Shown here: positions 6,395-30,439 of the stretch, piece by piece
How the letters are laid out: the number at the start of each line of letters is the position of its first letter
How positions within the stretch are numbered: position 1 is the first letter of the stretch
Origin: Lachnospiraceae bacterium
Lineage (GTDB): Bacteria > Bacillota > Clostridia > Lachnospirales > Lachnospiraceae
Direction of reading: 5' to 3'
Assembly (NCBI GenBank): GCA_021771695.1
Contig: JAETON010000025.1
Coordinates: 1 to 38,135, forward strand
Length of the DNA: 38,135 bases
Notes under the pieces: generated by a model
What the model was told of the DNA's origin: nothing
The model's database searches: none
Seen by the model: only the letters and a program-made list of their open reading frames with translations
Made by a program: the position numbers and the translations under genes

Positions 6395-6415
6395 TGGCAG
6401 AATAGAGGTATTTAT

Positions 6416-14231: not shown

Positions 14232-15734
14232 ATGGCAGGAACATATCGAGCAGGAGAAGAAAAGGTAAGACCGGGTGTGTATCGAAGATATACAGCCCAG
14301 ACAACACAGGGTGTTGCAGGAGCCATGACCGGAGTATTTGCAATTCCGGTACATGCAGATTTTGGTCCGTTAAGGACTGTTACAACACATACCAAATTTG
14401 ATACAGTCAAAGAATTGTATGGGGAAGGTGGAACTGTAAAAGGCGTGCAGAATCTGTTTAAAGGCGGAGCAGTGAAAGTATTTGTATATCGTCTTGGAAC
14501 AGAAGTGAGTACAGAAACGGAAAAAAGAGGTGTTTGTCAGACTTTAGAGTTACAGGATGAAAATAGAAATGAAAATGATAAAACAATTGTAATTCTAAAA
14601 ACAAAATATCCGACAGCAATTTCATTTACTGTAGATGTAAAGGAGAAACCGGCAAATGAAACAAAGAAGCAGTTTTGTGTATATCAGGGAGCCGTATTAA
14701 AAGAAACTTTAGAATATGAAGTAAAAGAGGGTGCAGATGAAGCCGAAATTTTAACAGAACTGGTAAATAAGCAGTCTGCAATTTTTACCGCAGAGAAATC
14801 AGTAAATGAAGCAGTATCATTAAGTAATATTGCAATTGTGGAGGTACAGTCTGGCTCCAATCCGAAAGTCACAGTAGAAGATTATGATTTGGCATTCGCT
14901 GCATTTGAAGCATATAAGTGGAATATTTTAGTAGCAGATACAACCAGCGAAGCAGTTCAGGCTTCTTTAAAGGCATATATGGAGCGAATTAAGGAAAATG
15001 GAGCTATTGGTTCTTGTGTCGTTGGTGGAAGAATTGATACTGTGAAGAGTACAGGAACATTAGAAGATGCAGATATTTCAGACTATAAGGGAATGACTTT
15101 TGAAGAACGTTTGAATCAGGCGAAAAGTTTTAATTCTGAATATTTCATTTATGCAGGAAGCGGCTATGTGGATGAAGATGGGAATCGGATGGATGGATAT
15201 GAAGCAATTACTATGCAGGCAGGAATTATTGGAAGTACACCATCCAATCAGTCTGTAGTACACACCGTCATTCCGGGTGCAGTAGATACTATGGAAGTGC
15301 TGAGAAATGAAGATTACATCAAAGCCATTGAAAATGGAATGTTAATGCTGTCTCCAAGTGAAGATGGACAGGTTTGGTTTGATAGTGGTGTAACAACACT
15401 AACAGACTTGAAAGAAAATCAGGATGCAGGGTGGAAGAAAATCCGCCGTACGATGACAAGATATGAAATGTTTGATCGTATTGACAGAACAATTACACCA
15501 TTGATTGGAAAAGTCAATTGTGATGCAGACGGTATTGCAAATATCGTGAAAGTAGCAAAGGATGTATTAAATGCAATGGTAAGAGAAGGAAAATTAAAGG
15601 ATGGAGCGGATTTTTATGAAGATTCAGAGTATCCAATGGGAGAAGATAATGTTCATTTTATTATTGCAGCATCCGATGTGGACAGCTTAGAAAAAATTTA
15701 TTTGAATTATCAATTTAGTTTTACTGCAGAATAG
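14232..15734 (+). CDS. contractile tail sheath protein (XkdK-like)
   Basis: Phage tail sheath subunit of 500 aa, the defining protein of a contractile tail. The N-terminus has the family's 'RPGVYRRY' start, followed by the GVFAIPVHADFGP and LFKGGAVKVFVYRLG segments. The C-terminal sheath domain has RRTMTRYEMFDRIDRTITPLIGKVNCDADG and ends in LNYQFSFTAE. It polymerises around the tube and contracts to drive it through the target envelope. An AAGGAGG ribosome site precedes it, consistent with high expression. It is followed 11 nt later by the tube gene. Confidence 0.93.
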   Translation: MAGTYRAGEEKVRPGVYRRYTAQTTQGVAGAMTGVFAIPVHADFGPLRTVTTHTKFDTVKELYGEGGTVKGVQNLFKGGAVKVFVYRLGTEVSTETEKRGVCQTLELQDENRNENDKTIVILKTKYPTAISFTVDVKEKPANETKKQFCVYQGAVLKETLEYEVKEGADEAEILTELVNKQSAIFTAEKSVNEAVSLSNIAIVEVQSGSNPKVTVEDYDLAFAAFEAYKWNILVADTTSEAVQASLKAYMERIKENGAIGSCVVGGRIDTVKSTGTLEDADISDYKGMTFEERLNQAKSFNSEYFIYAGSGYVDEDGNRMDGYEAITMQAGIIGSTPSNQSVVHTVIPGAVDTMEVLRNEDYIKAIENGMLMLSPSEDGQVWFDSGVTTLTDLKENQDAGWKKIRRTMTRYEMFDRIDRTITPLIGKVNCDADGIANIVKVAKDVLNAMVREGKLKDGADFYEDSEYPMGEDNVHFIIAASDVDSLEKIYLNYQFSFTAE

Positions 15735-15745: not shown

Positions 15746-16207
15746 ATGAGTGGAAAATTAGATGTGCGAACAATTATGACAGGAAATGATGGAAGATTAT
15801 TCATCAATGTGGATCAGCAGGATATTTTGTTAGCAGAAGTAAAGGAATATGAAGTGAAAGCTAATTTTGGAAATGTTGAATATAAACCAGTGGGAGATGC
15901 ACAGGAATATGCTATTCCAGACAAAGTGAAGTTTACACTGACATTTACAGGAGCAGTTATTCGGGACGATTTGATTATGGAACCTTTGTTAAGAGGAGTA
16001 AAAGAGGGAAAAATTCCATACTATGATTTCCAAAGTATGACAGCACGTTCTTATGATGGACAAGAACAGAGACTTTTATTGAATCACTGTGTCCCAGATG
16101 GAGATTTTGATTTGATGACTTTAAAAGCTGGAGAGGTTATTACCAGACAGCATACATTTGTAGTGAACAGTGTTCCGGAATTTATTAAATCGTTAACTGT
16201 AAAATAA
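15746..16207 (+). CDS. tail tube protein (XkdM-like)
   Basis: Inner tube subunit (153 aa) of XkdM type. It starts with a short lead-in and shows the 'DGRLFINVDQQDILLAEVKEYEVKA' segment and the alternating hydrophobic strands expected of a tube protein (VKFTLTFTGAV). Size and position straight after the sheath match PBSX XkdM and the diffocin tube. The strong TAGGAGG site supports high output. It stacks as hexamers inside the sheath. Confidence 0.92.
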   Translation: MSGKLDVRTIMTGNDGRLFINVDQQDILLAEVKEYEVKANFGNVEYKPVGDAQEYAIPDKVKFTLTFTGAVIRDDLIMEPLLRGVKEGKIPYYDFQSMTARSYDGQEQRLLLNHCVPDGDFDLMTLKAGEVITRQHTFVVNSVPEFIKSLTVK

Positions 16208-16232: not shown

Positions 16233-16739
16233 ATGGAAAATGCAGCAAAGAAAACAGCAATGGTGGAAGTGACAACAGAAAATGAAATGGATTTAGTGCA
16301 GGGGCTTTTGGATGCCGCAGATTTTCGCAATGATGATAATCTGCAGGCGAATATTCAGATTAAAAGAAATGGAAAAGTATTTTTTAGTTTTAAGATCCGG
16401 CCATTAAGCGAAGACGAATTGGTGGATGCACGTAAGAAATCTGTAGTAAAAATGGCAAACCCAAGTAATCCGAAATTACCGCCGATTGAAAAGGAATTAA
16501 AAGTAGAAGAATTTACCGCATGGAAAATTTATTTTGCTACAGTCGACAGAGAAAAAGTATGGGATAACCCAGATGTAAAAAAAGGGTTAAAGACCAAAGG
16601 ATTCCCGGTTCTTAGGGGGATTGATGTAATTAACACGGTATTACGTGCAGGAGAAAAGGACGCAATCGATGATCAGATTGATAAAATCAGTGGATTCTAT
16701 GACTCTGAAATTTCTGAAGAAGAATACGCAAAAAACTAA
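16233..16739 (+). CDS. XkdN-type tail assembly chaperone, zero-frame product
   Basis: Tail assembly chaperone of the XkdN family (168 aa), equivalent to lambda gpG. Members bind the tape measure protein and recruit tube subunits during assembly. The core covers about 15-165 (LVQGLLDAADFRNDD ... KIYFATVDREKVWDNPD ... DDQIDKISGFYDSEISEEE). The last codons, GCA AAA AAC TAA, hold a heptameric slip site, so a share of ribosomes should move to the -1 frame and add 55 codons. This gene is the parent of the C-terminal domain repeated in the downstream membrane array. The array copies end just before the slip site. Confidence 0.88.
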   Translation: MENAAKKTAMVEVTTENEMDLVQGLLDAADFRNDDNLQANIQIKRNGKVFFSFKIRPLSEDELVDARKKSVVKMANPSNPKLPPIEKELKVEEFTAWKIYFATVDREKVWDNPDVKKGLKTKGFPVLRGIDVINTVLRAGEKDAIDDQIDKISGFYDSEISEEEYAKN

Positions 16740-17098: not shown

Positions 17099-18076
17099 GT
17101 GAAGAAAATGAAAAGTACGAGAAAGAAAGCCAAGCAATTAGTGTTATTATGCATAATGTGTATAAGTATGGTGCTTTATGGCTGCTCAGGAAAGAAGGAG
17201 GTAAAGGATAAAGAGATTACATTGGAAATTAATGGAAAAGAGTATTCTGGGAAATATACAGGTCAATTAGAAGATGATGTACCAAATGGAAATGGTAAAT
17301 TTTCTATGAAAGAAGATCATGATTATTTGACTTATTCTGGAAAATGGAAAGAAGGGAAGTTTTCAGGGAAAGGGAAATTAAAAACTAATATTTATACAAT
17401 TGACTTTTCTGGTACTCAGACAGAAGGTATATATAATGGAGAAACTTTGAATGGGGAGGCTTCTGGAGACGGCAGTTTTGAAGCAGTAAATTCAGATAAA
17501 GTTAAATATAAATATTCTGGAGAATTTAAAAAAGGCACCTTTCATGGGCAGGGAACAACCACATATGAATCTGATGAGTATTATACTAAAACTGGAACCT
17601 ATCAGGATGGTGAATTTACACCAACCCCAGCAGAGTATTTTTATACTTTAGGAACATTAAAAGATGAAGAATATGAGCCGACAGAAAAGGCTATGAGTTT
17701 TTTGAAAAATAATCCCAATTTATTTTTAGATCAGGATAAAAAAATAGATAAAAAACTAATTGAATCGAATATATCATATAATAAGATTTCAAAAAAGGTA
17801 GATGATTACGGAGATAAACTTATATCTGTAGATAATTTACAGGTGATTCAGATTCGTGAAGAAGAAGGCTGGCAATATGAAAATACAACATTTGCTATAT
17901 TACAGGATGCTAGAGGGAATGTTTATTTTGCTAATATGATTGGAAAAGCAAAGCATATTTATCAGGGCAGCATAGTAAGTATTACGGCACTTCCGTTGGA
18001 TTATTTTACATATAAGACAGTGTCAGATTCAGATATGTGGGCATTGTCATGTGCAGTGGTTAGGATGGAAAAATAG
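17099..18076 (+). CDS. lipoprotein with MORN-like repeats (accessory cargo)
   Basis: Secreted, membrane-anchored lipoprotein of 325 aa. The signal peptide ends in the lipobox LYGC, so the mature protein begins at the Cys near residue 29. Residues about 50-190 hold MORN-like repeats (YSGKWKEGKFSGKGKL, YSGEFKKGTFHGQGTT, GTYQDGEF). The C-terminal part (about 195-325) is a small alpha/beta domain with no recognised family. A GTG start at 17099 is supported by GAAGGAG 7 nt upstream; ATG 17108 is the alternative. It is not a usual tail component. It has its own promoter and terminator and sits between chaperone and tape measure, like a prophage 'moron'. A surface immunity or exclusion role is possible but unproven. 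Confidence 0.75.
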   Translation: MKKMKSTRKKAKQLVLLCIMCISMVLYGCSGKKEVKDKEITLEINGKEYSGKYTGQLEDDVPNGNGKFSMKEDHDYLTYSGKWKEGKFSGKGKLKTNIYTIDFSGTQTEGIYNGETLNGEASGDGSFEAVNSDKVKYKYSGEFKKGTFHGQGTTTYESDEYYTKTGTYQDGEFTPTPAEYFYTLGTLKDEEYEPTEKAMSFLKNNPNLFLDQDKKIDKKLIESNISYNKISKKVDDYGDKLISVDNLQVIQIREEEGWQYENTTFAILQDARGNVYFANMIGKAKHIYQGSIVSITALPLDYFTYKTVSDSDMWALSCAVVRMEK

Positions 18077-18113: not shown

Positions 18114-18143
18114 GGCACAGGTATGAAATATACCTGTGCCTTT
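18114..18143 (+). terminator. terminator after lipoprotein gene
   Basis: Perfect 11-bp stem GGCACAGGTAT/ATACCTGTGCC (18114-18124 with 18130-18140) with a short T stretch. The group II intron relic starts a few bases downstream. Confidence 0.75.
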
Positions 18144-18146: not shown

Positions 18147-18767
18147 GTATAACGGGCATGTCCCGAAGCTTGGGTTAAAAGTCAACATGACCAAAACCCA
18201 TATCACGAGACCGGCAAAACTGAAATATCTTGGATTTGGGTTCTATAAAGACAGCAAGACTAAAGAGTGGAAATGCAGACCACATAAGGACTCCATTGCA
18301 AGATTAAAGGGCAGGCTGAAAGAACGAACCATGAGGAAAATGTCTGGTAAAATCACAGAAAAGATTAAACGTATCAATCAGGTGACAAGAGGCTGGATAA
18401 ACTATTACGCCCTCGACTAAATGAAAATATAAATGAAAGAAATTGACGCACACTTAAGAACGAGAATCCGTATTATCATTTGGGAACAATGGAAAGTGCC
18501 GAAGAAACGGCAATGGGGATTGCAAAAGTTAGGAATTGGAAGAGACCTTGCAAGGCTGACTTCATATTGTGGAGACTGCTACTATTGGGCAGCTACTAAA
18601 ACATGCGTAGTCAAGGCAATTTCTAAAAATGTATTGGCACGAGCAGGACTCGTTAGCTGTCTGGATTATGATAATGAGCGTCATGCTTTGAAGTTATATT
18701 GAACCGTCGTATGCCGAACGGCACGTACGGTGGTGTGAGAGGGGAGAGAAAATCTCCCTCACTCGAT
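18147..18767 (+). mobile_element. 3' remnant of a group II intron
   Basis: The piece holds the C-terminal part of an intron-encoded reverse transcriptase/maturase, followed by the RNA 3' end. A domain V-like hairpin follows the ORF (about 18703-18735, built on CCGTCGTATGCCG...GGCACGTACGG). A domain VI-like stem (GGGGAGA/TCTCCC) comes next, and the element ends at ACTCGAT near 18767. The intron 5' half, including domains I to III and the polymerase active site, is absent. It sits directly behind a terminator hairpin, a favoured target of some bacterial group II introns. The left boundary is approximate. Confidence 0.8.
18187..18702 (+). pseudogene. ltrA-like: group II intron maturase, truncated and interrupted
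   Basis: This is the end of a group II intron reverse transcriptase: the last fingers/thumb segment (KLKYLGFGFYKDSKTKEWKC), the maturase X domain (LKERTMRKMSGKITEKIKRINQVTRGWINYY), and the C-terminal part (MKEIDAHLRTRIRIIIWEQWK to the LKLY end). The reverse transcriptase core and YADD box are missing. Two in-frame stops (18418-18420 and 18430-18432) break the remaining frame. It cannot make an active maturase and marks an old insertion followed by decay. Confidence 0.85.
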
Positions 18768-18832
18768 TAAAATATATATAAACAATAATGCGTCTGGAAG
18801 GTAATATTACATTTAACAGCTAAGTACATATC

Positions 18833-18861
18833 TTGCTTTCGCAATAGGATATTAGTAAAAT
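18833..18861 (+). promoter_or_regulatory. array unit 1 candidate promoter
   Basis: TTGCTT (18833-18838), 17-nt spacer, TAAAAT (18856-18861). The same pair with the same spacing occurs before units 2, 4 and 5. Only the -10 is close to consensus; the conservation between copies is the main support. Confidence 0.5.
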
Positions 18862-18892
18862 AAGATTCATGGATAAAGGTGGAGGAAGTAAG

Positions 18893-19892
18893 ATGGAAAA
18901 AAAGAAGAGTATGTAGTATGTGAAGAAAAATATTTTTATTTAATTTTTATTATAGTATGTGCAATATTAACATATATATCTTATTGGGCGTTTACGTTAG
19001 ATGCTAATGATAGTGTATTTGAATATCGAAATGTTGGGTACATTCGTATTATTAGTTTTTTGGGAATAATAGCATTTTCATTACTAACATTATTTTATAT
19101 AAAATCTTATATTTCATTAAAAAAAATAATAGAATACTTGTTTTAACAGAGAAAGGGATTGAGTGCAATAATCCTGGCATGGAATATATAGGATGGATAG
19201 GCTGGGAGGAAATAGTAGATATTGCAGTAGAAAAAGATGGAGATTATACCGTCTTAAATGTCTATTTCTTTAATAATAATAGAGAATTAGAAAAAACTAG
19301 AGAGAAGAGAGTAAGAACAATTTTTAAAGAAAAAGATGGAATGCAGTGGGCAAGTATTCCGTTGTTGGAAACAAATCGGGATAAAGATGAGATTAAGGAG
19401 AAGGTACAAGAATACTGGGAAAAATATGGACAGGGAGGAGAACAAATCGGAAGCCTTGAAAAGAAAGCAGTAAAAAAACAGGAAAGGTTAGTTGAAGAAA
19501 ATGTGCAAAATGAAATGGATTTGATTGGAGGAATTTTAGAGGCAGCTGATTCTAAAAATTACCATAAATTGCAGGAGTCTATTGAAATCAAAAGAAATGG
19601 AAAAATTCTTTTTGATTTCAATATTCGTTCGTTAAGGCAAGAAGAGATAAGTAATTTGATGAAAGAGTATGCAACTGAAAAATTTGTCTTACAGAAAATT
19701 TATTTAGCAACCATAGATAAAGAAAAGATATGGGATAATTGGGAAATTCAAAATGGATTAAGGAAAAAAGGATTTTCAATTTCTACAGGAATTGATGTGA
19801 TTCAAGCAGTATTGGAAGAAAGTGAAATCAAAGAAATTAGTGCCAAGATTGATAAAATCAGTGACTTTCATGATTTTGAAATTTCAGAATAA
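18893..19892 (+). pseudogene. array unit 1: membrane/PH-like + XkdN-domain protein, frameshifted
   Basis: First of five tandem paralogues. The ATG at 18893 follows the array's GGTGGAGGAAGT ribosome site. Reading across two one-base deletions restores the family protein: an N-terminal segment with two membrane helices, a PH-like domain with the GWEEIVDI motif, a charged linker, and an XkdN-like chaperone domain (EMDLIGGILEAADSK ... KIYLATIDKEKIWDN ... SDFHDFEISE). The deletions lie in A runs, one right after the start codon (A7) and one near 19125-19133 (A8). The 3' part is still open from about 19179 and could give an XkdN-domain fragment. Either decay or slippage-based switching would explain this. 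Confidence 0.75.
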
Positions 19893-19941
19893 ATGAAAGG
19901 GAAAGTAGATATAAAAAATTAAAATCATATAAAAAGAAAAA

Positions 19942-19983
19942 GGAAAGATATAGGATAAACAAGTTCTGTGTCTTTCCTTTTTT
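19942..19983 (+). terminator. array unit 1 terminator
   Basis: GGAAAGA...TCTTTCC stem extended by A/T arms and wobble pairs, followed by T6. Same hairpin family as at 23110 and 24405. Confidence 0.8.
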
Positions 19984-20005
19984 GATGAAAGAAAGGAGAA
20001 AAAGA

Positions 20006-20044
20006 ATGGCAGAAACATTAGTAATTCATGTACAGGGAAGTTAA
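20006..20044 (+). pseudogene. relic of the tape measure gene start (copy A)
   Basis: After an intact GAAAGGAGAAAAAG site, the frame reads MAETLVIHVQG, identical to the true tape measure start at 24469, then Ser and a stop. It is a left-over of tandem duplication, since the duplicated unit carried the 5' end of the tape measure gene. A 12-aa peptide could still be translated. Confidence 0.8.
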
Positions 20045-20099
20045 AAGATAAGATTGTATTTATATAAGTGATGGTATGCTCTACAATTAAAATGAAATC

Positions 20100-20128
20100 T
20101 TGCTTTTATTATAAGATACCAGTAAAAT
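20100..20128 (+). promoter_or_regulatory. array unit 2 candidate promoter
   Basis: TTGCTT (20100-20105), 17-nt spacer, TAAAAT (20123-20128), as in units 1, 4 and 5. Confidence 0.5.
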
Positions 20129-20159
20129 AAGCTTAATAGATAAAGGTGGAGAAAGCAAG

Positions 20160-21157
20160 ATGGAGAAAAAGAAAGTATATAAAGTTCACAAAAATAAAAA
20201 AAGTATTTATGGTGGACAATTTTTAGTGCAGTATTTGGTTATGGTGGATATTGGATGTTGACATTAAGTGCAAATGATAGTGCATTTGAACATTGAAGTG
20301 TGTTCATAGTTAGATTAATGGGTGTATTTTTAATAGTAATAATGGGATTGTTTGTTTTTTCTTTAATAACTGGATTTTTAGGGAAAAATGTAGTTATGGT
20401 TTTAACAGAAGAAAATGTATGGCTTGATAATTTCCCTCCTATTGGATTTATAGGCACAATTGATTGGGAGGAGATATATGATATTCAAATAGAAACAAAT
20501 CAGGATGAAAAAGCAATTTTATTCTATTATGATAGTGAAAATAAGAAACATAGTAGAAAAAGAAGATTGTCCGCATTTAATCTCGAAGATAGGGATATAG
20601 CCCGGCTTGCATTGCTTTTTATTGAAGAAGATAGAGAAGAAGTTATCAAAACAGTATTTGAATATTGGCAAGAATATCAACAGAGAGCTGATAAATCATT
20701 AAAAATATTTGAACAAAAAGATATAATAGTTAAGGAACAAAAGAATATAATTTCAGAGATAAAAAAAGATAATTCTCAATTAGTTCGAGGACTTTTGAAA
20801 GCAGCTGATTCTAAAAAGCAAATTGATTTGAAAGAATCTATTGAAATTAAGAGGAATGAAGAAACATTTTTTGAATTTCATATTTGTTCGTTAGATAAAA
20901 AAGAAATGGATAACTTAAGTAAAAAATATGTAACAGAAAAACTTGTCTTACAGAAAATTTATTTAGCAACAATAGATAGAGAAAAAATATGGGATAATGA
21001 AGAAATTCAAAATCAATTAAGGACAAAAGGATTTTCAATCTGTACCGGAGTTGATGTGATTCAAGCAGTATTGGAAGAAAGTGAAATCAAAGAAATTAAT
21101 GCCCGGATTGATCAAATCAGTGGCTTCCATGATGCTGAAATCTCAAATGTAAATTAA
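20160..21157 (+). pseudogene. array unit 2: membrane/PH-like + XkdN-domain protein, disrupted
   Basis: Second paralogue. The ATG at 20160 has the conserved array ribosome site, but an early frameshift (about 20195-20210) and a TGA at 20294-20296, in place of the Arg codon seen in FEHRN of unit 4, break the N-terminal membrane segment. From about 20300 the frame is open to 21157 and encodes the second membrane helix, the PH-like domain (FIGTIDWEEIYDIQ), a linker and a complete XkdN-like domain (QLVRGLLKAADSKK ... SGFHDAEISNVN). A shorter protein starting at the GTG 20300 is possible. No clear terminator follows this unit. Confidence 0.72.
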
Positions 21158-21228
21158 CAGAGATGGAAGAAGATATAGAAAACTAAAATAATATAAGAAT
21201 GAAATTAATGAATGAAATAAATTTAATT

Positions 21229-21259
21229 TTGCTTGTAAAGGTTTTAATAGTGTTATAAA
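21229..21259 (+). promoter_or_regulatory. array unit 3 candidate promoter (degenerate)
   Basis: TTGCTT (21229-21234) and TATAAA (21254-21259) with a 19-nt spacer. Related to the other array promoters but with poorer spacing. Confidence 0.35.
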
Positions 21260-21287
21260 ACTACTATTGTAGTAGAAAGGTGAGAGA

Positions 21288-21926
21288 ATGGAAGAAAAGG
21301 CAAATTATATAGTTCATAAAAGCAAAAGGAAATATTTAATGAGGATGAGCTTCTACTTAGTTCTAGTTTGTTTAGGATTTTGGTGTTTAGATCCTAATCC
21401 AAGTAGTACTCCAGTAGAACGGTATGGAATTCTGGCGGTTAGAATGATAGCAGTTTTTGGAATATTACTGTTTGGCTTGATAGTGATATATTGTATAAAA
21501 GAAGCTTTTAGCAAAAAAGAAGTTATGATACTGTCAAAAGAGGGGATTTGGTTTGATAATCTTCCGCCTTTAGGATTTATCGGAACTATTAGTTGGGATG
21601 AAATATATGATATTCAAGAAGAACCTATAAAAGAAACTACATTTGAATTTTATTATAAAGATAAGCACAAGAGGGCAAAAAGAAAAAGGTGGTCATATTT
21701 TTTGGGCGATTATGATGAAATGGCTAAAATCCGATTGGTACATATAAAAGAGGACATAAAAGAAGTAAGAAAAATCATATATGAATATTGGGAATGTTAT
21801 GGACAGATGAAAGAGCAGCCAAACATAAAAACAGACGAAATGGAAAGTAAGGCAGAATTCCATGATTCATTTCATCATTTGAATGTGAACAATAAATCAA
21901 AGAAGTCAGAATTGACAGAAAAATAA
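21288..21926 (+). CDS. array unit 3: membrane/PH-like protein without XkdN domain
   Basis: Intact 212-aa member of the array. It has the two N-terminal helices (about 17-37 and 50-72) and the PH-like region (about 80-170, with LPPLGFIGTISWDEIYDIQ, close to unit 2). It stops soon after the linker, with an unrelated polar tail (HDSFHHLNVNNKSKK), so the XkdN chaperone domain is absent. The ribosome site AAAGGTGAGAG is good. It resembles stand-alone STM3941-type membrane proteins. It may be the ancestral form of the N-terminal module, or a unit that lost its C-terminus. Confidence 0.75.
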   Translation: MEEKANYIVHKSKRKYLMRMSFYLVLVCLGFWCLDPNPSSTPVERYGILAVRMIAVFGILLFGLIVIYCIKEAFSKKEVMILSKEGIWFDNLPPLGFIGTISWDEIYDIQEEPIKETTFEFYYKDKHKRAKRKRWSYFLGDYDEMAKIRLVHIKEDIKEVRKIIYEYWECYGQMKEQPNIKTDEMESKAEFHDSFHHLNVNNKSKKSELTEK

Positions 21927-21975
21927 GAACTGTGTTTATATAGTTGATGATATACTTTATAATTAAAATGAAATC

Positions 21976-22004
21976 TTGCTTTCATAATAGGATATTAGTA
22001 AAAT
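21976..22004 (+). promoter_or_regulatory. array unit 4 candidate promoter
   Basis: TTGCTT (21976-21981), 17-nt spacer, TAAAAT (21999-22004). A 15-nt stretch just upstream (TTGATGATATACTTT at 21944) also occurs at 16981 after the tail chaperone. Confidence 0.5.
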
Positions 22005-22035
22005 AAGATTAATGGATAAAGGTGGAGGAAGTAAG

Positions 22036-23061
22036 ATGGAGAAAAAAGAAGAGTATGTGGTATATGGAAATAAAACGAGGTATTTATTGTGGTGTTTGGC
22101 GGGGATAGTAATGGTTTATTGTGGTTATTCTATATTAAATTTGGATGCAAGTGATAGTGTATTTGAGCATCGAAATATTGGGTTTGTGCGATTAGTTAGT
22201 GTATGTGGAATTATACTTTTCATTGCATGTATAATTGTTTTTATTATATGCTTTTGTAAACTGAAAAAGGATAATAAATTAATTATTCTTACAGAAGATG
22301 CAATACGGTTAAATCATTTATTAGGTGGTTTTAGAGGTTGGATTGGATGGGAGGAAATTGTAAATTTAAATACTAGAATGGATGAGTATGGGAATACACT
22401 TTTAGAAATTTATTATGTAGATAAAAATGATTATTTAAAAAGTAAGAGAAAGTCTGGAATGTTAGGTTTAAAAGATATTGAGGGAGACATTCACCAAGCA
22501 GGATTAGGGATTGTTGGAACAAATAAAAAACCAAAAGAAGTTGTTGAAAAAATTTATGAATACTGGGAAAACTATAAACAACAAACAAAAAAGCCTGTTG
22601 AACCAGTAGAAACGATAAAAACAGAAACAGACATATTGATTGAAAAACCTAAAACGGAGATAGTAGAGGAAGATGAATTAAATTTGATGGAAGGACTTTT
22701 AGAGGCTGCTGACGATAAAAAATGCAATGAATTGCAACAATCCATTAAAATCAAAAGAAATGGAAAAATTCTTTTTGAATTTCATATTCGCTCATTGAAT
22801 AAAAAAGAAATGAGTGATTTAAATGAAAAATATGTGGTAGAAAAATGTAGTTTGCAGAAAATTTATTTGGCAACCATAGATAAAGAAAAAATATGGGATA
22901 ATGAACAAATTCAAAATCAATTAAAGGCAAGGGGATTTTCGATTTCTACAGGGATTGATGTGATTCAAGCAGTATTGGAAGAAAGTGAAATCAAAGAAAT
23001 TAATATCCAGATTGATCAAATCAGTGGCTTTCATGATTCTGAAATCTCGAAAGTAAATTAA
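22036..23061 (+). CDS. array unit 4: intact membrane/PH-like + XkdN-domain protein
   Basis: Full-length array protein, 341 aa. Membrane helices lie at about 15-35 and 51-74, with the short loop LDASDSVFEHRN outside or between. A PH-like domain at about 80-170 carries the motif GWIGWEEIVNL and resembles STM3941-family proteins. A Pro/Glu/Lys/Thr-rich linker spans about 185-215. The C-terminal domain (about 218-338) is a copy of the tail chaperone XkdN (ELNLMEGLLEAADDKK ... KIYLATIDKEKIWDNEQ ... QIDQISGFHDSEIS). It lacks the slip site and -1 extension. The start is 22036 because the GGTGGAGGAAGT site lies 5 nt before it. Expected location: cytoplasmic membrane, chaperone domain in the cytoplasm. 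Function unknown; tape-measure binding is inferred. Confidence 0.82.
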   Translation: MEKKEEYVVYGNKTRYLLWCLAGIVMVYCGYSILNLDASDSVFEHRNIGFVRLVSVCGIILFIACIIVFIICFCKLKKDNKLIILTEDAIRLNHLLGGFRGWIGWEEIVNLNTRMDEYGNTLLEIYYVDKNDYLKSKRKSGMLGLKDIEGDIHQAGLGIVGTNKKPKEVVEKIYEYWENYKQQTKKPVEPVETIKTETDILIEKPKTEIVEEDELNLMEGLLEAADDKKCNELQQSIKIKRNGKILFEFHIRSLNKKEMSDLNEKYVVEKCSLQKIYLATIDKEKIWDNEQIQNQLKARGFSISTGIDVIQAVLEESEIKEINIQIDQISGFHDSEISKVN

Positions 23062-23109
23062 CAGAAAGGGAAGAAGATATAGAAAACTAAAATAATATAA
23101 AGATAAAGA

Positions 23110-23151
23110 GGAAAGATATAGGACTAAGAAGTTCTATACCTTTCCTTTTTT
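23110..23151 (+). terminator. array unit 4 terminator
   Basis: GGAAAG-A-TATAG stem (23110-23121) paired with CTATA-C-CTTTCC and an inner GGACT/AGTTC extension with a small loop, followed by T6. One mismatch in the stem. Confidence 0.82.
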
Positions 23152-23173
23152 GATGGAAGAAAGGAGAAAAAGA

Positions 23174-23236
23174 ATGGCAGAAACATTAGTAATTAGTGCA
23201 CAAGAGAAGTTTAAAGATAAGAATGTGTTTATATGA
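23174..23236 (+). pseudogene. relic of the tape measure gene start (copy B)
   Basis: Begins MAETLVI like the real tape measure, with the same ribosome site, then diverges (SAQEKFKDKNVFI) and stops after 20 codons. It marks the edge of another duplication unit. Confidence 0.78.
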
Positions 23237-23264
23237 TAGTATATTCTGCGATTAAAATGAAATC

Positions 23265-23293
23265 TTGCTTTCGTAATAGGATATTAGTAAAAT
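23265..23293 (+). promoter_or_regulatory. array unit 5 candidate promoter
   Basis: TTGCTT (23265-23270), 17-nt spacer, TAAAAT (23288-23293); same layout as units 1, 2 and 4. Confidence 0.5.
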
Positions 23294-23324
23294 AAAATTA
23301 ATAGATAAAGGTGGAGGAAGTAAG

Positions 23325-24359
23325 ATGGAGAAAAAAGAAGAGTATGTAGTACATGTTACAAGAAGTAGTTATTTGCTTCGTATTATTATGAGTTTTGCAA
23401 TGGAATATTTATTTTATAGAATATTTATCTTGGATGCAAATAATAGCGTATTTGAATATAGAAATGTTACATATATTCGATTGATTAGTCTTGTAGGTAT
23501 GGCATTATTTTTTGTATGTTTTATTGTTTTAGTGATTATGTTTTTGGGATTAAGAAAAAATAATGGATTAATTTTTCTTAATCAATCCAAGATTAAAATT
23601 TGTTATAATCATCCCATTTTAGGTGTTTTGACTGAAATTGCATGGGAAGAAATAACAGATATTGATAGGAGGAGGAAACAAAATGATGATTGGGTAATGG
23701 ATATCTATTATATTGATAAAAATATAGTTGGTTTGGATAAAAAGAAAAGAGGGAAAGAGGTTGTTTTTACTAATGATGGTATAATTTACAGAGCATCTGT
23801 GTTGTTAGCTTATATAGATAAAGAGCCAGAAGAAGTTATTAATAAAATATTTGAATACTGGGAAAACTATAAACAACAAACAAAGCAGCATGTTGAACCA
23901 GTAGAAACGATAAAAACAGAAACAGACATTTTGCTTGAAAAACCTAAAACAGAGATAGTAGAGGAAAATGAATTAAATTTGATGGAGGGACTTTTAGAGG
24001 CTGCTGACGATAAAAAATGCAATGAATTGCAACAATCCATTAAAATCAAAAGAAATGGAAAAATTCTTTTTGATTTCAATATTTGCTCATTAAGTCGAGA
24101 AGAGATAAACAAGTTGGGTGAGAAGTATATAGGGAAAGAATATAGTTTACAGAAAATTTATTTAGCAACCATAGATAAAGAAAAAATATGGGATAATGAA
24201 CAAATTCAAAGTCAATTAAGGAAAAAAGGATTTTCAATTTCTACAGGAATTGATATGATTCAAGCAGTATTGGAAGAAAGTGAAATCAAAGAAATTAATG
24301 CCAAGATTGATCAAATCAGTGGCATTCATGCTTTTGAAATCTCGAAAGCCAATGAATAG
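23325..24359 (+). CDS. array unit 5: intact membrane/PH-like + XkdN-domain protein
   Basis: Second complete full-length array protein (344 aa). Its layout matches unit 4: two helices (about 14-34 and 50-74), PH-like domain with AWEEITDID, linker, XkdN-like domain. From the linker on (EPVETIKTETDIL) it is nearly identical to unit 4, but the membrane and PH-like part is clearly different. The C-terminal domain is therefore kept uniform or recently copied, while the N-terminal part has diversified. A strong terminator separates it from the tape measure gene. Function unknown; see unit 4. Confidence 0.82.
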   Translation: MEKKEEYVVHVTRSSYLLRIIMSFAMEYLFYRIFILDANNSVFEYRNVTYIRLISLVGMALFFVCFIVLVIMFLGLRKNNGLIFLNQSKIKICYNHPILGVLTEIAWEEITDIDRRRKQNDDWVMDIYYIDKNIVGLDKKKRGKEVVFTNDGIIYRASVLLAYIDKEPEEVINKIFEYWENYKQQTKQHVEPVETIKTETDILLEKPKTEIVEENELNLMEGLLEAADDKKCNELQQSIKIKRNGKILFDFNICSLSREEINKLGEKYIGKEYSLQKIYLATIDKEKIWDNEQIQSQLRKKGFSISTGIDMIQAVLEESEIKEINAKIDQISGIHAFEISKANE

Positions 24360-24404
24360 AGATGGAAGAAGATATAGAAAACTAAAATAATACAAAAATA
24401 AAGA

Positions 24405-24446
24405 GGAAAGATATAGGACTGAGAAGTTCTACATCTTTCCTTTTTT
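24405..24446 (+). terminator. terminator before the tape measure gene
   Basis: Long hairpin GGAAAGAT-A-TAGGACT / AGTTCTA-C-ATCTTTCC with a four-base loop and one mismatch, then T6 (24441-24446). It ends 22 nt before the tape measure start, so tape measure expression needs read-through, antitermination or another promoter. Confidence 0.85.
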
Positions 24447-24468
24447 GATGAAAGAAAGGAGAAAAAGG

Positions 24469-26436
24469 ATGGCAGAAACATTAGTGATTCATGTACAGGG
24501 AAGATTCTCGGATGGAATTACCCCAGGAAGCGAGAGGGCTTCGCAAAGTTTGGAAAGGCTGGAGCGGAGAATGAGAAAGGTGGTGAGACAAAGCAGACAA
24601 CTTTCTGGCATGAATGTTCATATGAAAATCGACGCAATAGATTTAGCTTCGAAAAAAATAAGGAAAGTAATTGCTTTGGGATCACAGTTAAATAACATGG
24701 TATTTCAACCTCGAATAGTGATGGCAAATCCTAAGAAAGAATTTGTGAATCCAAATAGTGTGGCAACAAATACAATGGGAGAGCCTAAAGTAAGTGGAGG
24801 AAAAGTAAGTGTAAAAAAGGGAATGAGGAAAAAAGATAAAAGCTTTGCACAAAAGTTTATTGAAAAGTCAAAGGAAACTATGATTACTGATTTTTTGAAT
24901 GATAGAGCCGAGAAATATAAAGATGATTTTGTGAAAATAGGTGAAGAGTTAAAAAATTCGGCAAAAGGAAAATTAAATACGGAATATAACAAATTTCAAA
25001 AAACTAAGATGGGAAAAGCTGCTGTTGAGAAAATAGAGAAATTTAAAAACTCAAAGACAGGAAAATTTGCAGCTGATGGAATAGAGAAAATAAAAAATGT
25101 GCCTAATAAGATGGTAACTTCAAAAAATAAATTACTGAATTCAAGGGTAATACAAGGTGTTTCAGAAAAAGTGGATATGCTTTTTTCTAAACCGGCAGGG
25201 CAGAAAGTAAAAAGTTTGTTAAGTCGAGGAGGAAAAGCGTTAAGTAAGGAAGCACCAGGAATATTTGATTATGCTTTTGCAGCTCACAATATTATAAAAG
25301 CGAAAGACAAAGGAAAAGCAGTTTTTAAAGAAGGAGGTGGACTTTTGTTAGGAACTGCTGGAGCAGCAATAAGTAGTGCGACAGTAGGAGCACTTACAGG
25401 TTCAGCAGTAGGACCTGTGGGAACTGTTTTAGGAGCAGGGGCAGGATTTCTTGGTGGTGTCGCAGGGTCTATAGGAGGAGAATGGCTTGGCAAAAAAGCA
25501 TACGGCGGTTGGAAAAAACTCAAAAGCAGTTTTGAAAAAGGAAGAGAAAAACTGCAAAAGAAACAGATAAAAGCCCAGAAGGAAACAATGAAGCAATATG
25601 ACTACAATGGAAATGTTTGGACGAAAAAGAATAAGAAAAACAAAATGACAGGTAGTCCATATTTGGATCAAAAATACTATCAAAATGAAAAGCGAAAGAG
25701 AAAAAAAGCCAAGAAAACCAAAACTGATCCTACAGAAAAGAGAACCACCAAGAAAGTAGCAAAACAGGTAAAAGATGTCGGTTCCAATTCAAAGAAAACA
25801 GGAAATAAAATCCAAAGTCTTGGAAAAACATCTGGAGGTTCAGGCAAACAGGTAGCAGGATTAGGCTCTAATTCGTTGTCAGCTGGAACATCAGTTTCAG
25901 GAATGGGAAATTCCGCTAGCGGAGCAGCCGGATCTTTAGGAATGTTGACAGGAGCAATCGCAATGGCGGCAGCAAGTTTATCTTCTTTATCCTTCCTATC
26001 TTTTGGAGGATTAATGTTTGGCGGTGGTATTCAGAGAAATGCCAACGGAAGTTTTGTTGGTGGAAAAACCTTAAGCTGGGTTGGTGAAGATGGACCAGAG
26101 GTAATTATTCCATTAGGCGGCAAACGAAGAAAAAGAGGATTGGATTTATGGCATCAGGCAGGTGCAATGCTTGGAGTTTCTCAGCACGCGGAAGGAGGTT
26201 TTGTTGGCGGTGGATTTACTGGCGGAAAAGCTTCCAATGGAAAGAAAAATGCACCAATCAGTGTTTCCGTAGGTAATATTACCATTGAGTTAAAAGGAAA
26301 TGGTGATGGAACAGGAAAAAATATTGATTTATTAAAATTGCTGCAGGAACAGAAAAATCAGGTTTCTGATGAAATCTGTACGATACTGGCAGACGCTTTA
26401 GAATCTGCGTATCGAAATATTCCGGTGGCACAGTAA
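24469..26436 (+). CDS. tail tape measure protein
   Basis: Tape measure protein of 655 aa that sets tail length and probably lines or exits the tube on contraction. It is Lys-rich and largely helical. A Gly/Ala-rich hydrophobic stretch lies at about 289-341 (GTAGAAISSATVGALTGSAVG ...) and another at about 480-520, typical of tape measures that enter membranes. A C-terminal domain follows (VSVGNITIELKG ... LLKLLQEQKNQVSDEI). By the common rule of about 0.15 nm per residue, the tail would be close to 100 nm. The start at 24469 has an AAAGGAG site, and the first 11 residues are duplicated at 20006. It is the expected partner of the XkdN chaperone and perhaps of the array proteins. Confidence 0.85.
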   Translation: MAETLVIHVQGRFSDGITPGSERASQSLERLERRMRKVVRQSRQLSGMNVHMKIDAIDLASKKIRKVIALGSQLNNMVFQPRIVMANPKKEFVNPNSVATNTMGEPKVSGGKVSVKKGMRKKDKSFAQKFIEKSKETMITDFLNDRAEKYKDDFVKIGEELKNSAKGKLNTEYNKFQKTKMGKAAVEKIEKFKNSKTGKFAADGIEKIKNVPNKMVTSKNKLLNSRVIQGVSEKVDMLFSKPAGQKVKSLLSRGGKALSKEAPGIFDYAFAAHNIIKAKDKGKAVFKEGGGLLLGTAGAAISSATVGALTGSAVGPVGTVLGAGAGFLGGVAGSIGGEWLGKKAYGGWKKLKSSFEKGREKLQKKQIKAQKETMKQYDYNGNVWTKKNKKNKMTGSPYLDQKYYQNEKRKRKKAKKTKTDPTEKRTTKKVAKQVKDVGSNSKKTGNKIQSLGKTSGGSGKQVAGLGSNSLSAGTSVSGMGNSASGAAGSLGMLTGAIAMAAASLSSLSFLSFGGLMFGGGIQRNANGSFVGGKTLSWVGEDGPEVIIPLGGKRRKRGLDLWHQAGAMLGVSQHAEGGFVGGGFTGGKASNGKKNAPISVSVGNITIELKGNGDGTGKNIDLLKLLQEQKNQVSDEICTILADALESAYRNIPVAQ

Positions 26437-26445: not shown

Positions 26446-27414
26446 ATGGATATTAAATTATCAGGAGTAAATAAAAATAATCAGAATGTGACAATTACAA
26501 TTCCTCTGCTTCCAGAGGAAATCAGCTATTCCAGTACTGCTAGATTTCAGGAATATGAAATATTGGATTTAGGAGAGGTAAAACTTCCAAGAGGAAGAAA
26601 CTTAAATACATACAGTTGGGATGCAGCATTTCCATCCATAAATAGAGAGAACTTATCATTTTTACATGGAGGGAAATTGCAGAAACCAGAGGTATATATC
26701 AATCATATTGAGTATTGGAAAAACAATCAGAAGAAAGTAAATCTAATGATACAAAGTACAGCATTTAATCAGAGAACAGTGTACATTGAAGAATTTTCCT
26801 ATCGAATGACTTCCATAGGTGACTATCAGTACTCAATTTCCCTTGTGGATGCTGTTGATCTTATTCTAAACAAGCAAAAGAAACGTGCATCCAGCAAAAA
26901 TACGAAGAAGTATAAAGTAAAATCAAATAAAGAAACACTTCGTGATATTGCGAAGAGGTTTTATGGAGATGGCAGCAAATATAACAGGATTTATAATGCC
27001 AATAAGTCATTGATTGACAAAAGAAACAAAGCAGAAAAAAAGAAAGGCAGGAAGGTATCAAAGTATAAAATTTATAAAGGACAGGTATTAACCATTCCTT
27101 CTGCTTCTAAAACAACATCTAAAAAAAATTCATCGGTTTTAGCATTGCAGAAGGCAATAAACAAAGACAAATATGCAAAAGTTAGTGAAACAGGTATTTT
27201 GGACAGCAAAACGAAAGTTGCTATGAAAAAGGTTCTGATTAAGAACGGCAAACGAGGGGAAGTTGTTAAATTTGTTCAAGGGAAAGTTGGCGTAACTAAA
27301 GATGGAATCTGTGGATCTAAGACTGTAAAAGGGATTAAATCTTATCAAAGAAAACATGGTTTAAAAGTAGATGGAATTGCCGGATATAATACTTTGATGA
27401 AAATGATGAAATAG
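26446..27414 (+). CDS. LysM hub/spacer protein (XkdP-like) with peptidoglycan-binding domain
   Basis: Baseplate hub protein of 322 aa. The N-terminal domain (about 1-145) has the pattern LLPEEISYSSTARFQEYEIL of XkdP-type proteins. A LysM domain follows (about 160-222: YKVKSNKETLRDIAKRFYG to KGQVLTIP). A C-terminal peptidoglycan-binding repeat region (about 228-322) includes GVTKDGICGSKTVKGIKSYQ. It joins tube and baseplate and may dock the particle's tip to murein. It starts 9 nt after the tape measure gene with an AAGGAGG site. The extra C-terminal murein-binding domain is longer than in a minimal XkdP. Confidence 0.87.
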   Translation: MDIKLSGVNKNNQNVTITIPLLPEEISYSSTARFQEYEILDLGEVKLPRGRNLNTYSWDAAFPSINRENLSFLHGGKLQKPEVYINHIEYWKNNQKKVNLMIQSTAFNQRTVYIEEFSYRMTSIGDYQYSISLVDAVDLILNKQKKRASSKNTKKYKVKSNKETLRDIAKRFYGDGSKYNRIYNANKSLIDKRNKAEKKKGRKVSKYKIYKGQVLTIPSASKTTSKKNSSVLALQKAINKDKYAKVSETGILDSKTKVAMKKVLIKNGKRGEVVKFVQGKVGVTKDGICGSKTVKGIKSYQRKHGLKVDGIAGYNTLMKMMK

Positions 27415-27425: not shown

Positions 27426-28436
27426 ATGAAAGCATCGTTAGTACAGCCGGTTTATACGTGCATTATTAAAACAAATAAAGCGGCCTATAATGTATCCAAT
27501 GTAATTACAGGACTCACGTTATCGCAAAATGAAGAAGAAATGGCACAGTCTGTTTCAGTAACGATTCCTAATTTGAAGGATTCTTACAAGTATCTTTACA
27601 ACAATATTTCTGTTAGAGATTCACTGTATTTGTATTGCAATACAGGCGGAGAAAATCATGAGATATTCAGAGGGACCATTTGGGATAAGGATTATTCCAG
27701 TGATGTAACAAAAGATTTAACATTAACAGCATATGATCGGTTAATTTATTTGCAGAATACGAAAGATAATTTTTTCTTTTCCAAAGGGAAAAGTACCGAA
27801 TCTATTATTAAATCCATCTGTAAACGCTGGGGAGTAAAGGTGAATTTTCGATATCAGAGTATCAAACATAAACGAATGATATTAAGAGAGGAAACTGTTG
27901 CAGACAGCATCCTACAGGTATTAGATGAAGTGAAGAAAAAGACCGGGAAAAAATATGTAATTTCCTGTGAAAAGGGTGTGCTGGTAATTCGGAAAAGGGG
28001 TTATAATTCTACCGTATATTCGGTGAATTATAAAGAAAATGCCTTGTCACAGAATACCAGAGTAACGATGGATGGAATGATAACAAAAGTTGCCATTTAC
28101 CGGGAACAGGAGTCAGAGAGCAGTCAGGAAAAACCACCGAAAAAAGTAACTGTGGTAAAAGGAAATACGAAGAAATATGGAACCTTGCAGGAGATTATCA
28201 TTCGAGATTCGGAAGATAAGAAGTCAACACAGGCGAAGAAAGAAGCAAAAGAAATTTTAAAAGAATATGGAAAACCGTTTTATGATCGAACAGTTGAGGC
28301 AGTAGATAATCCCTATATCAAAAAGGGGCATAAGATTAAAAGCAATGCCGGGGCTTTGGAAGGGTATTACATTGTCAAAGGAATTGAACATGATTGTATG
28401 AATGGCATTATGAGTTTGGAGGTGGAAACGTCATGA
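27426..28436 (+). CDS. baseplate hub protein (XkdQ/gpD-like)
   Basis: Hub protein of 336 aa of the XkdQ/YqbQ type, related to phage late control gene D. It forms the trimeric base on which the tube is built. Recognisable parts are the first beta-domain (SVTIPNLKDSYKYLYNNISVRDSLYLYC), the middle YDRLIYLQNTKDNFFFSKGK segment, and a C-terminal part (AKEILKEYGKPFYDRTVEAVDNPYIKKGHKI) ending in a beta-rich repeat. It follows the LysM gene with a GGGAGGTG site and overlaps the next gene by four bases. Confidence 0.87.
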   Translation: MKASLVQPVYTCIIKTNKAAYNVSNVITGLTLSQNEEEMAQSVSVTIPNLKDSYKYLYNNISVRDSLYLYCNTGGENHEIFRGTIWDKDYSSDVTKDLTLTAYDRLIYLQNTKDNFFFSKGKSTESIIKSICKRWGVKVNFRYQSIKHKRMILREETVADSILQVLDEVKKKTGKKYVISCEKGVLVIRKRGYNSTVYSVNYKENALSQNTRVTMDGMITKVAIYREQESESSQEKPPKKVTVVKGNTKKYGTLQEIIIRDSEDKKSTQAKKEAKEILKEYGKPFYDRTVEAVDNPYIKKGHKIKSNAGALEGYYIVKGIEHDCMNGIMSLEVETS

Positions 28437-28723
28437 GTAATAAAGGCACTAGCAACAAAGGCAGGGCAAGGCTGGCAGGCATTCTGCAAGGCAGAATGGG
28501 AAAAGTTAAAAATTTTCAGAGCAGTCCTACAGCAGAATTAGGGATTCTTCGTAAAAATGGACTGATTTTGGACAGTTTTCCAGATGATGTCATTGAAAAT
28601 GGAGATTATATGATATGTCAGTCAATAAAAATGCAGACAGGAAACAGTAGAGTATTGGTTGTATGGGCAGGAGAAACAGCCATTGTTGTAGATGTTTTGT
28701 CTGCATCAGGAAATGGAGATTGA
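28433..28723 (+). CDS. DUF2577 baseplate protein (XkdR-like)
   Basis: Small beta-rich baseplate protein (96 aa). It has the DUF2577-like pattern KVKNFQSSPTAELGILRKNGLILDSFPDDVIENGDYMI. The ATG overlaps the stop of the hub gene (ATGA), and GGAGGTGG lies 7 nt upstream; the open frame further upstream is not used. Position between XkdQ and DUF2634 is the standard PBSX order. Confidence 0.85.
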   Translation: MSNKGTSNKGRARLAGILQGRMGKVKNFQSSPTAELGILRKNGLILDSFPDDVIENGDYMICQSIKMQTGNSRVLVVWAGETAIVVDVLSASGNGD

Positions 28724-28736
28724 AAGGGGTGATGAG

Positions 28737-29204
28737 ATGGCAGAACTATTTCCAGAAGATTTTGATAAAGAAGAGTTGGATGCAAAAGAAATTGAAGAAC
28801 AGTTAGAAGAGCCTGCTGGCTATAAAAAAGGGATTTGCTTTGATGACAGCTTGGGAGATTTTAAGCGGGATGGAACAATGAAGCTGGTAGAATGTAGTGG
28901 AATTGAAAGCTGGATTCAATGGTGTATAAAAATTCTGCAAACCAAACGTTATGTATGTCAAGCGTATAGTGATGATATAGGAATTGATTTGGAAAGAGCA
29001 TTTACAGCGGAGTCAAGAGAAGAAGCAGAGAGTATTTTAAGACAGGAAATTGCCGAAGCACTGGAGGCAGATCCGTATGGAAGGACAGAATTTGTTAAAT
29101 CTGTGGAATTTCAATGGAAAGAGAATGATTCTGTAGAGGTGGACTGTGTCATTATTGGAATGGATTCCAACGAAATTGAAGTAACAACAACGATGGAACG
29201 ATAG
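28737..29204 (+). CDS. DUF2634 baseplate protein (XkdS/gp25-like)
   Basis: Baseplate wedge protein of 155 aa, the counterpart of T4 gp25. It contains AIESWIQWCIKILQTKRY-like and SDDIGIDLERAF segments (as ESWIQWCIKILQTKRYVCQ), then SREEAESILRQEIAEALEADPYGR, all typical of DUF2634. The start at 28737 is set by GAAAGGGGTGAT upstream. It initiates sheath polymerisation in related systems. Confidence 0.87.
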   Translation: MAELFPEDFDKEELDAKEIEEQLEEPAGYKKGICFDDSLGDFKRDGTMKLVECSGIESWIQWCIKILQTKRYVCQAYSDDIGIDLERAFTAESREEAESILRQEIAEALEADPYGRTEFVKSVEFQWKENDSVEVDCVIIGMDSNEIEVTTTMER

Positions 29205-30437: not shown

Positions 30438-30439
30438 GG

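Follow-up and report, generated by a model that had tools for sequence, protein, structure and literature searches.

A 38,135-nt stretch of a Lachnospiraceae bacterium genome (GCA_021771695.1, contig JAETON010000025.1, positions 1-38,135; hereafter the window) carries a putative R-type tailocin in which five tandem paralogous units lie between the gene for the XkdN-type tail assembly chaperone (TAC) and that for the tape measure protein (TMP). Four of these units carry a copy of the chaperone domain behind a PH-like part that is membrane-anchored where intact. Our preferred reading, to which we assign a probability of about 0.48, is that the tailocin, whose polymorphic TMP would be the killing effector, provides its own membrane immunity (exclusion) proteins in these units, each transcribed independently. 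The idea of protection from TMPs gains support from the units having their own promoter-like leaders, and from a tailocin of the same genus (genome G003), in which unfused PH-like proteins adjoin three variable TMPs.

According to this reading, an expelled TMP would insert into the cell membrane and make a pore, and a resident two-helix PH-like protein would meet it there and block the pore. The window lineage would have joined a duplicate of its resident chaperone to the rear of the PH-like domain, so that the shield gained a TMP-binding module; tandem amplification of the fused unit and diversification of its membrane part would then give cover against several TMP types. We thus infer that the fused domain binds the TMP, that the units are expressed in uninduced cells and block the pore, and that they protect.

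Architecture, selection and descent of the units

As the preliminary description had it, five paralogous units occur in tandem between the TAC and TMP genes; chance similarity is ruled out by repeats that align over 0.38-2.5 kb at 59-78% identity. The units and the two genes that bracket them are as follows.

16233-16739, + strand: XkdN-type TAC (gpG-like); Pfam PF08890 at 34.6 bits, PHROG 389 at E 1.2e-18
16730-16736, + strand: AAAAAAC run of the TAC gene
to about 16903, + strand: -1 frame T extension of the TAC, read by analogy with lambda G/GT in the excerpts at hand of PMC4493119
18893-19892, + strand: unit 1; membrane part broken; open frame 19179-19892 holds the PH-like part and TAC domain
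20161-21157, + strand: unit 2; membrane part broken; open frame 20300-21157 holds the second helix, PH-like part and TAC domain
21288-21926, + strand: unit 3; two-helix STM3941-type protein with neither TAC domain nor scar
22012-23061, + strand: unit 4 (likely start 22036); two helices, PH-like part, linker and TAC domain; intact
23325-24359, + strand: unit 5; membrane part, PH-like part, linker and TAC domain; intact; 61% identical to unit 4
24445-26436, + strand: TMP (likely ATG 24469); variable N part and conserved C-terminal ~150 aa

The description's statement that each unit has two membrane helices does not hold, since the open frame of unit 1 encodes none and that of unit 2 one, their upstream halves being frame-broken; in unit 5 the second helix alone passes the hydropathy cut of 1.6, the first reaching 1.45. 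Its assignment of the N-terminal half to a PH-like, STM3941-like class was borne out by a scan with NCBIfam NF041635 that took in units 2-5 and not unit 1: units 3 (61.4 bits) and 4 (43.8 bits) score above the cut-off of 40, unit 2 (29.6 bits) falls below it and unit 5 has no match. An AlphaFold2 model of unit 4 (predicted local distance difference test score, pLDDT, 80.7) places helices at residues 13-35 and 44-78, a linker of low confidence and the TAC domain at 214-330; the strands and helix that it predicts at residues 81-183 we read as PH-like.

The C-terminal XkdN chaperone domain had been claimed for four units, and indeed units 1, 2, 4 and 5 align with the TAC and unit 3 lacks the domain. 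With the chaperone as query, unit 4 is matched at E 3.7e-30 and 49% identity, and it also matches PHROG 389 ('tail protein XkdN-like') at E 5.4e-9; in Pfam PF08890, units 4 (21.5 bits) and 1 (17.6 bits) stay below the 27-bit cut-off and units 2 and 5 are not listed. At the level of sequence, homology to the chaperone is not in doubt. The structural match to XkdN that had been proposed as a check did not appear: Foldseek searches against the PDB and BFVD gave nothing at E <= 0.001, so it is the sequence match that identifies the domain. Below that threshold, the list of weak PDB matches holds many proteins with known PH domains, and the viral (BFVD) list holds three tail chaperones, at ranks 8, 36 and 41. 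Solved structures gave no sequence match at E <= 1, and the best PADLOC match (unit 5 to PDC-S05) had E 0.0034.

Relative to true chaperones, the fused domains have lost defined parts. None of the four has the NPKLPP loop, which is invariant in the four genus TACs aligned, and the AAAAAAC run is absent from the end of every fused TAC, as is the T extension, both of which are present in the true TAC. In phages lambda and TP901-1, TMP binding is believed to fall to the G domain and recruitment of the tube protein to the T domain (PMC4493119, in the portion available). By analogy, a G domain without T might bind the TMP yet start no tail.

Between fused TACs, the ratio of nonsynonymous to synonymous divergence (omega) is 0.30-0.54, with bootstrap upper bounds of 0.49-0.98 that stay below 1 in all six (non-independent) pairs; for the N-terminal parts, the upper bound is below 1 in five of six pairs, that of units 1 and 4 reaching 1.01. 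The TAC frames are intact in four of four copies, where neutral drift predicts an average of 3.3-5.9 stops per copy and a probability of 0.001-0.03 per copy of finding none. Judged by these measures, the fused TACs are under purifying selection, less strict than that on true TACs (omega 0.04-0.07, at saturated synonymous divergence, dS).

In a phylogenetic tree the fused TACs form one clade (support 100/98) that stands as sister to, not inside, the genus TACs, a position that we read as long-branch attraction. The window TAC is the best-scoring match of all four, and their dS is lowest to it (0.91-1.42), as against 1.41-3.00 to the TACs of three other species (3.00 being the upper limit and 1.41 the value for unit 2 to G003); the window TAC itself stands at 2.83-3.00 from these. 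Because scores and dS both point to the window TAC, capture of the fused domain from the resident chaperone within the window lineage is supported but not proved by sequence comparison.

The array is built of repeats of about 1.29 kb, whose 3′ end lies inside the first ~12 codons of the TMP gene; positions 21919-23212 and 23213-24506 are 78% identical, and 18777-20040 and 23212-24503 are 72% identical. Two copies of this TMP 5′ end are left as scars.

20006-20040, + strand: TMP 5′ scar (first ~12 codons) after unit 1
23174-23212, + strand: TMP 5′ scar after unit 4

Because the repeats have the same TMP breakpoint, tandem duplication with unequal crossing-over explains the scars; a single deletion with amplification afterwards may also have given rise to them. 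Scars as leftovers of full PH-TMP pairs ('TMP deletion') were considered and are not needed, one TMP breakpoint being common to the repeats. The membrane/PH parts have diverged more than the TAC parts, with dS of 0.90 versus 0.28 between units 4 and 5, 1.65 versus 0.57 between units 2 and 4, and 1.11 versus 0.49 between units 1 and 4. On these values, the array units have a diversifying front and a more homogeneous back.

Transcription-like signals accompany the units.

18833-18861, + strand: promoter-like leader of unit 1 (TTGCTT-17-TAAAAT)
20100-20128, + strand: promoter-like leader of unit 2
21976-22004, + strand: promoter-like leader of unit 4
23265-23293, + strand: promoter-like leader of unit 5
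19942-19983, + strand: terminator-like hairpin after unit 1 (60 nt from 19942: z -4.71, 0 of 200 shuffles as stable)
23110-23151, + strand: terminator-like hairpin after unit 4 (z -3.46, 1 of 200 shuffles as stable)
24405-24446, + strand: terminator-like hairpin between unit 5 and the TMP gene (z -3.67, 1 of 200 shuffles as stable)

The hexamers TTGCTT and TAAAAT, 17 bases apart, are invariant in all four TAC-bearing units. So are 10 of the 17 bases between them, 22 of the 53 columns upstream and 29 of the 35 downstream, the latter including the region of the ribosome-binding site (RBS). The hairpins after units 1, 4 and 5 carry T-runs, and terminator-like sites number 12 in the window versus 7.2 in shuffles. 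Leaders and hairpins together resemble the moron pattern, which would mean transcription of the units' own inside the tail operon. In the folds at 19942-20001, 23110-23169 and 24405-24464, the T-run pairs with the RBS region of the TMP start or scar; this predicted pairing may hold back translation.

Tape measure proteins and PH-like genes in related tailocins

The chaperone occurs in 4 of 11 genomes of the genus, and five tailocins of this type were compared: those of the window, G003, G008 and G009, and L066 from IMG/VR (L067 and L069 are letter-identical to G009 and G003 over the blocks compared). Across species the C part of the window TMP is 57-83% identical, and its N part is 33% identical over 380 of 510 residues in G008 and 27% over 149 in G003, with no match in G009 or L066. 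By comparison, the fibres are 33-47% identical, the protein at 13267-14064 is 30-49%, and the other tail proteins together with the TMP C part are 45-83%. From these alignments, the TMP N part varies across species no less than the fibres do.

The G003 tailocin holds not one TMP gene but three, with the order PH1-TMP1-PH2-TMP2-PH3-PH4-PH5-TMP3 between the TAC and the last TMP.

G003:C1 453958-460717 (L031, reverse strand; also L069): three tandem intact TMP genes, alike in their C-terminal third and divergent in their N parts, with PH-like membrane gene(s) before each
G003:C1 about 446770-448350 (L031 start / L182 end): decayed fourth TMP cassette (orphan)

The PH1-PH5 proteins are 154-164 aa long, with two helices by hydropathy and no fused TAC domain. 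STM3941_fam is the best NCBIfam match of all five, at 15.6-34.9 bits and thus below the cut-off of 40 throughout, and an AlphaFold2 model of PH2 (pLDDT 88.8) shows the same build of two helices followed by a barrel and helix. Basic residues predominate just behind the second helix (3-5 K/R, 0-1 D/E), whereas the flank on the N-terminal side is acidic; because there are two helices, both ends should lie on one side of the membrane, presumably the cytoplasm. Upstream of PH1-PH3 a TATAAT box is found, each with 10 of 12 consensus matches. The TMPs themselves are mosaic: TMP1 and TMP2 are 99.5% identical over the last 405 nt and 56.7% over the remainder, the corresponding values being 88.6% and 55.1% for TMP1 and TMP3, and 88.1% and 76.5% for TMP2 and TMP3. 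The fibre gene is followed downstream by the decayed fourth TMP and, with it, a PH-type fragment (E 3.4e-5).

Effector-immunity sets, including the polymorphic toxin/immunity cassettes of contact-dependent growth inhibition (CDI) and type VI secretion (T6SS), typically combine a variable effector part on a fixed, homogenised anchor with small adjoining membrane genes, and occur as tandem and orphan cassettes. A variable module on a homogenised anchor, with a small gene adjoining each, is what G003 presents; the window has one TMP. Since this layout is that of effector-immunity sets, we regard the PH-like proteins, by analogy, as candidates for immunity and the fused TAC as a module added for TMP binding. 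The window and G003 have the membrane/PH-like part in common and not the chaperone domain, so the fusion is probably an add-on to an immunity-like protein, not the origin of the function. More tentatively, and with doubt prevailing over belief, tailocins of this type may be polymorphic toxin systems in which the TMP is an interchangeable pore-forming effector recombined onto a fixed C-terminal anchor, the adjoining PH-like proteins are its cognate immunity, and the immunity protein of the window lineage captured a chaperone to hold the TMP at the membrane.

A killing role for the TMP has precedent in a cryo-EM preprint on diffocins (PMC10996793), which proposes, in the excerpts at hand, that the expelled TMP trimer inserts fifteen helices to form a lethal pore in the target membrane; in a T6SS study (PMC10240207, as far as its available text goes), glycine-zipper motifs overlap a membrane segment in some phage TMPs. 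In six of seven TMPs, hydropathy picks out between one and three segments, whose means of 1.3-1.6 over 19 residues are weak, so the pore step is plausible, not established. The TMP N parts gave no clear toxin family. TMP3 had a weak match to SieB superinfection exclusion (E 0.0085), and two further weak ones, HisKin-conflict on the G009 TMP (E 0.0034) and CPAP on TMP1 (E 0.013), were below cut-off. The G008 N part and window TMP residues 121-426 match the 'tail associated lysin' family phrog_1047 (E 1.8e-4 and 1.3e-10, respectively), and the window C part matches PHROG TMP families (phrog_23574, E 4.5e-11).

A search for the fusion in other tail loci, suggested by the preliminary description, came back with the window's own genome as the one whole-unit match among 98. 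Four of the 98 genomes match the unit at all: G008 and G009 do so through their chaperones alone, and G003 through its chaperone and two unfused N-terminal relatives at 27-28% identity. For the fusion, viral contigs gave 0 loci, genome contigs one locus with a plain chaperone, and 50,697 phage records one match, to the TAC part alone and in an unannotated stretch. Proteins of the G003 PH type were found in 1 of 11 genus genomes, G003 itself (two more of its contigs contributing an interrupted copy and a fragment), and in none of the phage records; they appeared in 0 of 80 IMG/VR loci whose TMP C-terminus is related (L067 and L086-L164, the best 80 of at least 120) and in 0 of 397 genomes of the family, a draw that shows little because it contains none known to match.

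Elsewhere the TAC and TMP genes lie close together, 101-378 bp apart in 32 of 33 measured loci. This survey took 35 TAC loci, two of which (L138, L148) had no TMP-like open reading frame (ORF) in view; it included L066 and L067, left out the window, G003, G008, the same-locus records L068, L069 and L085, and L017 (= L053), and listed plus-strand ORFs of at least 80 aa. Its loci having been picked for the similarity of their TAC or TMP, the sample is not a random one. The one large gap, of 2071 bp in L094, holds a minus-strand HicAB-like pair and a split TMP.

L094:1942-2817, - strand: HicAB-like toxin-antitoxin pair (named by eye)

In G009 and L066 the chaperone extension ends close to the TMP. 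G008 has a 355-bp gap with no gene and a hairpin of z -5.54 (L029, reverse strand, about 5535-5594), perhaps what remains of an insert since lost. In L052, of the same family, a lipoprotein-like gene (by eye) lies directly 3′ of the TMP gene (reverse strand, 5819-6607).

Competing explanations

Several observations weigh against membrane immunity as the function of the units. Two of the five, and hence two of the four that bear a TAC domain, are broken, and the fused TACs have lost the otherwise conserved NPKLPP loop together with the T extension. The pairing of PH-like genes with TMPs is seen in two of five tailocins, G008, G009 and L066 having no PH genes in the gap, and unit 3 is 12-17% identical to the G003 PH proteins; given so low an identity, two recruitments of one fold class are possible. 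The eight STM3941-type genes of seven other genomes are solitary, none standing beside tail genes (neighbourhoods of 5 kb, or to the contig end where contigs were short, judged by eye). The TMP membrane segments are weak by hydropathy and wanting in G009. On the side of transcription, the unit hairpins were picked by eye and a consensus terminator scan does not list them; those of G003, which follow PH1, PH2 and PH5, are weak (z -1.0, -1.7 and -2.2, with 30, 17 and 5 of 200 shuffles as stable), and no TATAAT box precedes PH4 or PH5. Shuffled sequence has no fewer promoter-like sites than the real one (66 in the window versus 79.0 in shuffles, 44 in G003 versus 58.0), so the claim of unit leaders rests on their conservation.

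The units could instead be non-adaptive chimeras: a membrane gene would have recombined with the chaperone gene, unequal crossing-over would have multiplied the product, and the copies would now be decaying. Such a history would agree with the broken upstream parts of units 1 and 2, with the single TMP breakpoint common to the repeats and with the faster evolution of fused than of true TACs (omega 0.30-0.54 versus 0.04-0.07, the latter at saturated dS). Against it speak the omega upper bounds below 1 in six of six TAC pairs and five of six N-part pairs, the four intact TAC frames where neutral drift predicts 3.3-5.9 stops, and the invariant leader hexamers, which together leave us regarding decay as unlikely. 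A slightly smaller chance goes to superinfection exclusion directed at phages and not at tailocins, in which a membrane-bound TAC would capture an incoming XkdN-type phage TMP and block DNA entry. TMP-targeting exclusion has been reported for the phage lipoprotein Ltp (PMC3952083, in the parts available), the leaders and hairpins of the units are moron-like, and a MORN lipoprotein-like gene adjoins the array. However, the G003 PH genes adjoin the tailocin's own TMP variants, which is a better fit to self-immunity, and the fused TACs are nearest to the tailocin's own chaperone by score and dS.

As intracellular guards or assembly regulators, the units would tether or titrate the TMP made by the cell itself at the inner membrane face, so that the cell does not poison itself or so that fewer tails are assembled. 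In favour, the TAC domain comes after the second helix, presumably on the side of the cytoplasm, and a G domain without T might bind the TMP and not recruit the tube protein (by the available part of PMC4493119). Against this reading, a TAC domain is absent from the G003 PH proteins, and separate promoter-like leaders do not suggest co-regulation with assembly; we think this the least probable of the three. A caution on PH-domain proteins comes from a leaderless bacteriocin cluster that also has such membrane proteins, one of which is tied to production, not immunity (PMC7332713, excerpts). Membrane immunity to TMPs thus stays our preferred reading, at the probability given at the outset.

Setting of the locus and relation to known systems

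The window belongs to a genome of 2.85 Mb in 116 contigs, and its tail locus is flanked on both sides by sugar-metabolism genes. Besides the genes listed above and two Gp10_C fibres, an amidase and a holin, the locus comprises the following.

14232-15734: sheath
15746-16207: tube
17099-18076, + strand: MORN-repeat lipoprotein-like gene (Pfam MORN 41.5 bits; signal peptide/lipobox by eye)
18114-18140, + strand: own terminator of the MORN gene (terminator scan; fold z -3.80)
18187-18702, + strand: remnant of a group II intron maturase (both ORFs match Pfam GIIM, at E 4.5e-8 and, below cut-off, E 0.0043)
26446-27414: LysM/endolysin-like hub
27426-28436: PHROG 400 tail protein
28692-29204: sheath initiator
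29220-30437: baseplate wedge
30395-31018: gp48-like protein

Sheath, tube, baseplate and lysis genes are present, and no head, terminase or packaging family was found among the 35 window ORFs scanned, of 100 listed; on this gene content, we take the locus for a headless contractile R-type tailocin. The MORN lipoprotein-like gene, which lies with its own strong terminator between chaperone and array, is possibly another exclusion-type gene; the maturase remnant sits between it and the array. At the end of the tailocin locus in G008 (L029:4218-4649, - strand) and G009 (L030, reverse strand, 14417-14851) is a zinc-ribbon two-helix membrane protein, and a similar stretch is found in G003 near the end of L182. 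G003 further has zinc-ribbon STM3941-type proteins on contigs C41 (L033) and C65 (L032), C41 also bearing an interrupted copy of the G003-type PH gene; this zinc-ribbon relative has no viral match.

Among known systems, Ltp of Streptococcus phage TP-J34 is, like the units, an envelope protein of a phage element, and it is reported to exclude phages by interacting with the TMP (PMC3952083, in its available portion). Ltp differs in being a lipoprotein with repeat domains. What would place the units in the envelope are predicted membrane helices. To our knowledge, it has neither a chaperone domain nor an array beside a TMP gene. XkdN-type chaperones (PF08890/PHROG 389) are homologous to the C-terminal domain of four units, which differ in being membrane-anchored where intact and in lacking the NPKLPP loop, the slippery run and the T extension. 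Units 3 and 4 have in their N-terminal half the two helices and PH-like domain of the STM3941 family (NF041635); genes of this kind occur in 8 of 397 family genomes (the window's included), and the eight other members seen stand alone on the chromosome, with no tail genes adjoining them. Compared with cassettes of the CDI or T6SS kind, the candidate effector here would be a TMP inside the tail, its variable part N-terminal.

Diffocins and other R-type tailocins are alike in having a headless contractile tail locus with holin and amidase, and for the diffocin TMP a role as pore former has been proposed (PMC10996793, excerpts). According to the accessible part of a Pseudomonas study, no immunity genes are known for tailocins (PMC8319346), and a review, in the portion at hand, says the same of antibacterial toxins of extracellular contractile injection systems (PMC10598620); the window has candidates for such genes. 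No description of membrane-anchored TACs or TMP-paired immunity genes was found in the partly accessible literature searched, most subscription journals lying outside it. The units resemble TMP-excluding envelope proteins or effector-immunity cassettes and are an established member of neither.

Whatever their function, three tandem mosaic TMPs in one tailocin and membrane-anchored chaperone domains in another are an unusual anatomy. If the units protect against matching TMPs, self-protection in tailocins would become a testable gene-for-gene question and the TMP a recognised effector in such tailocins, and a chaperone domain turned into a membrane trap would be a novel means of stopping tail-borne injection.

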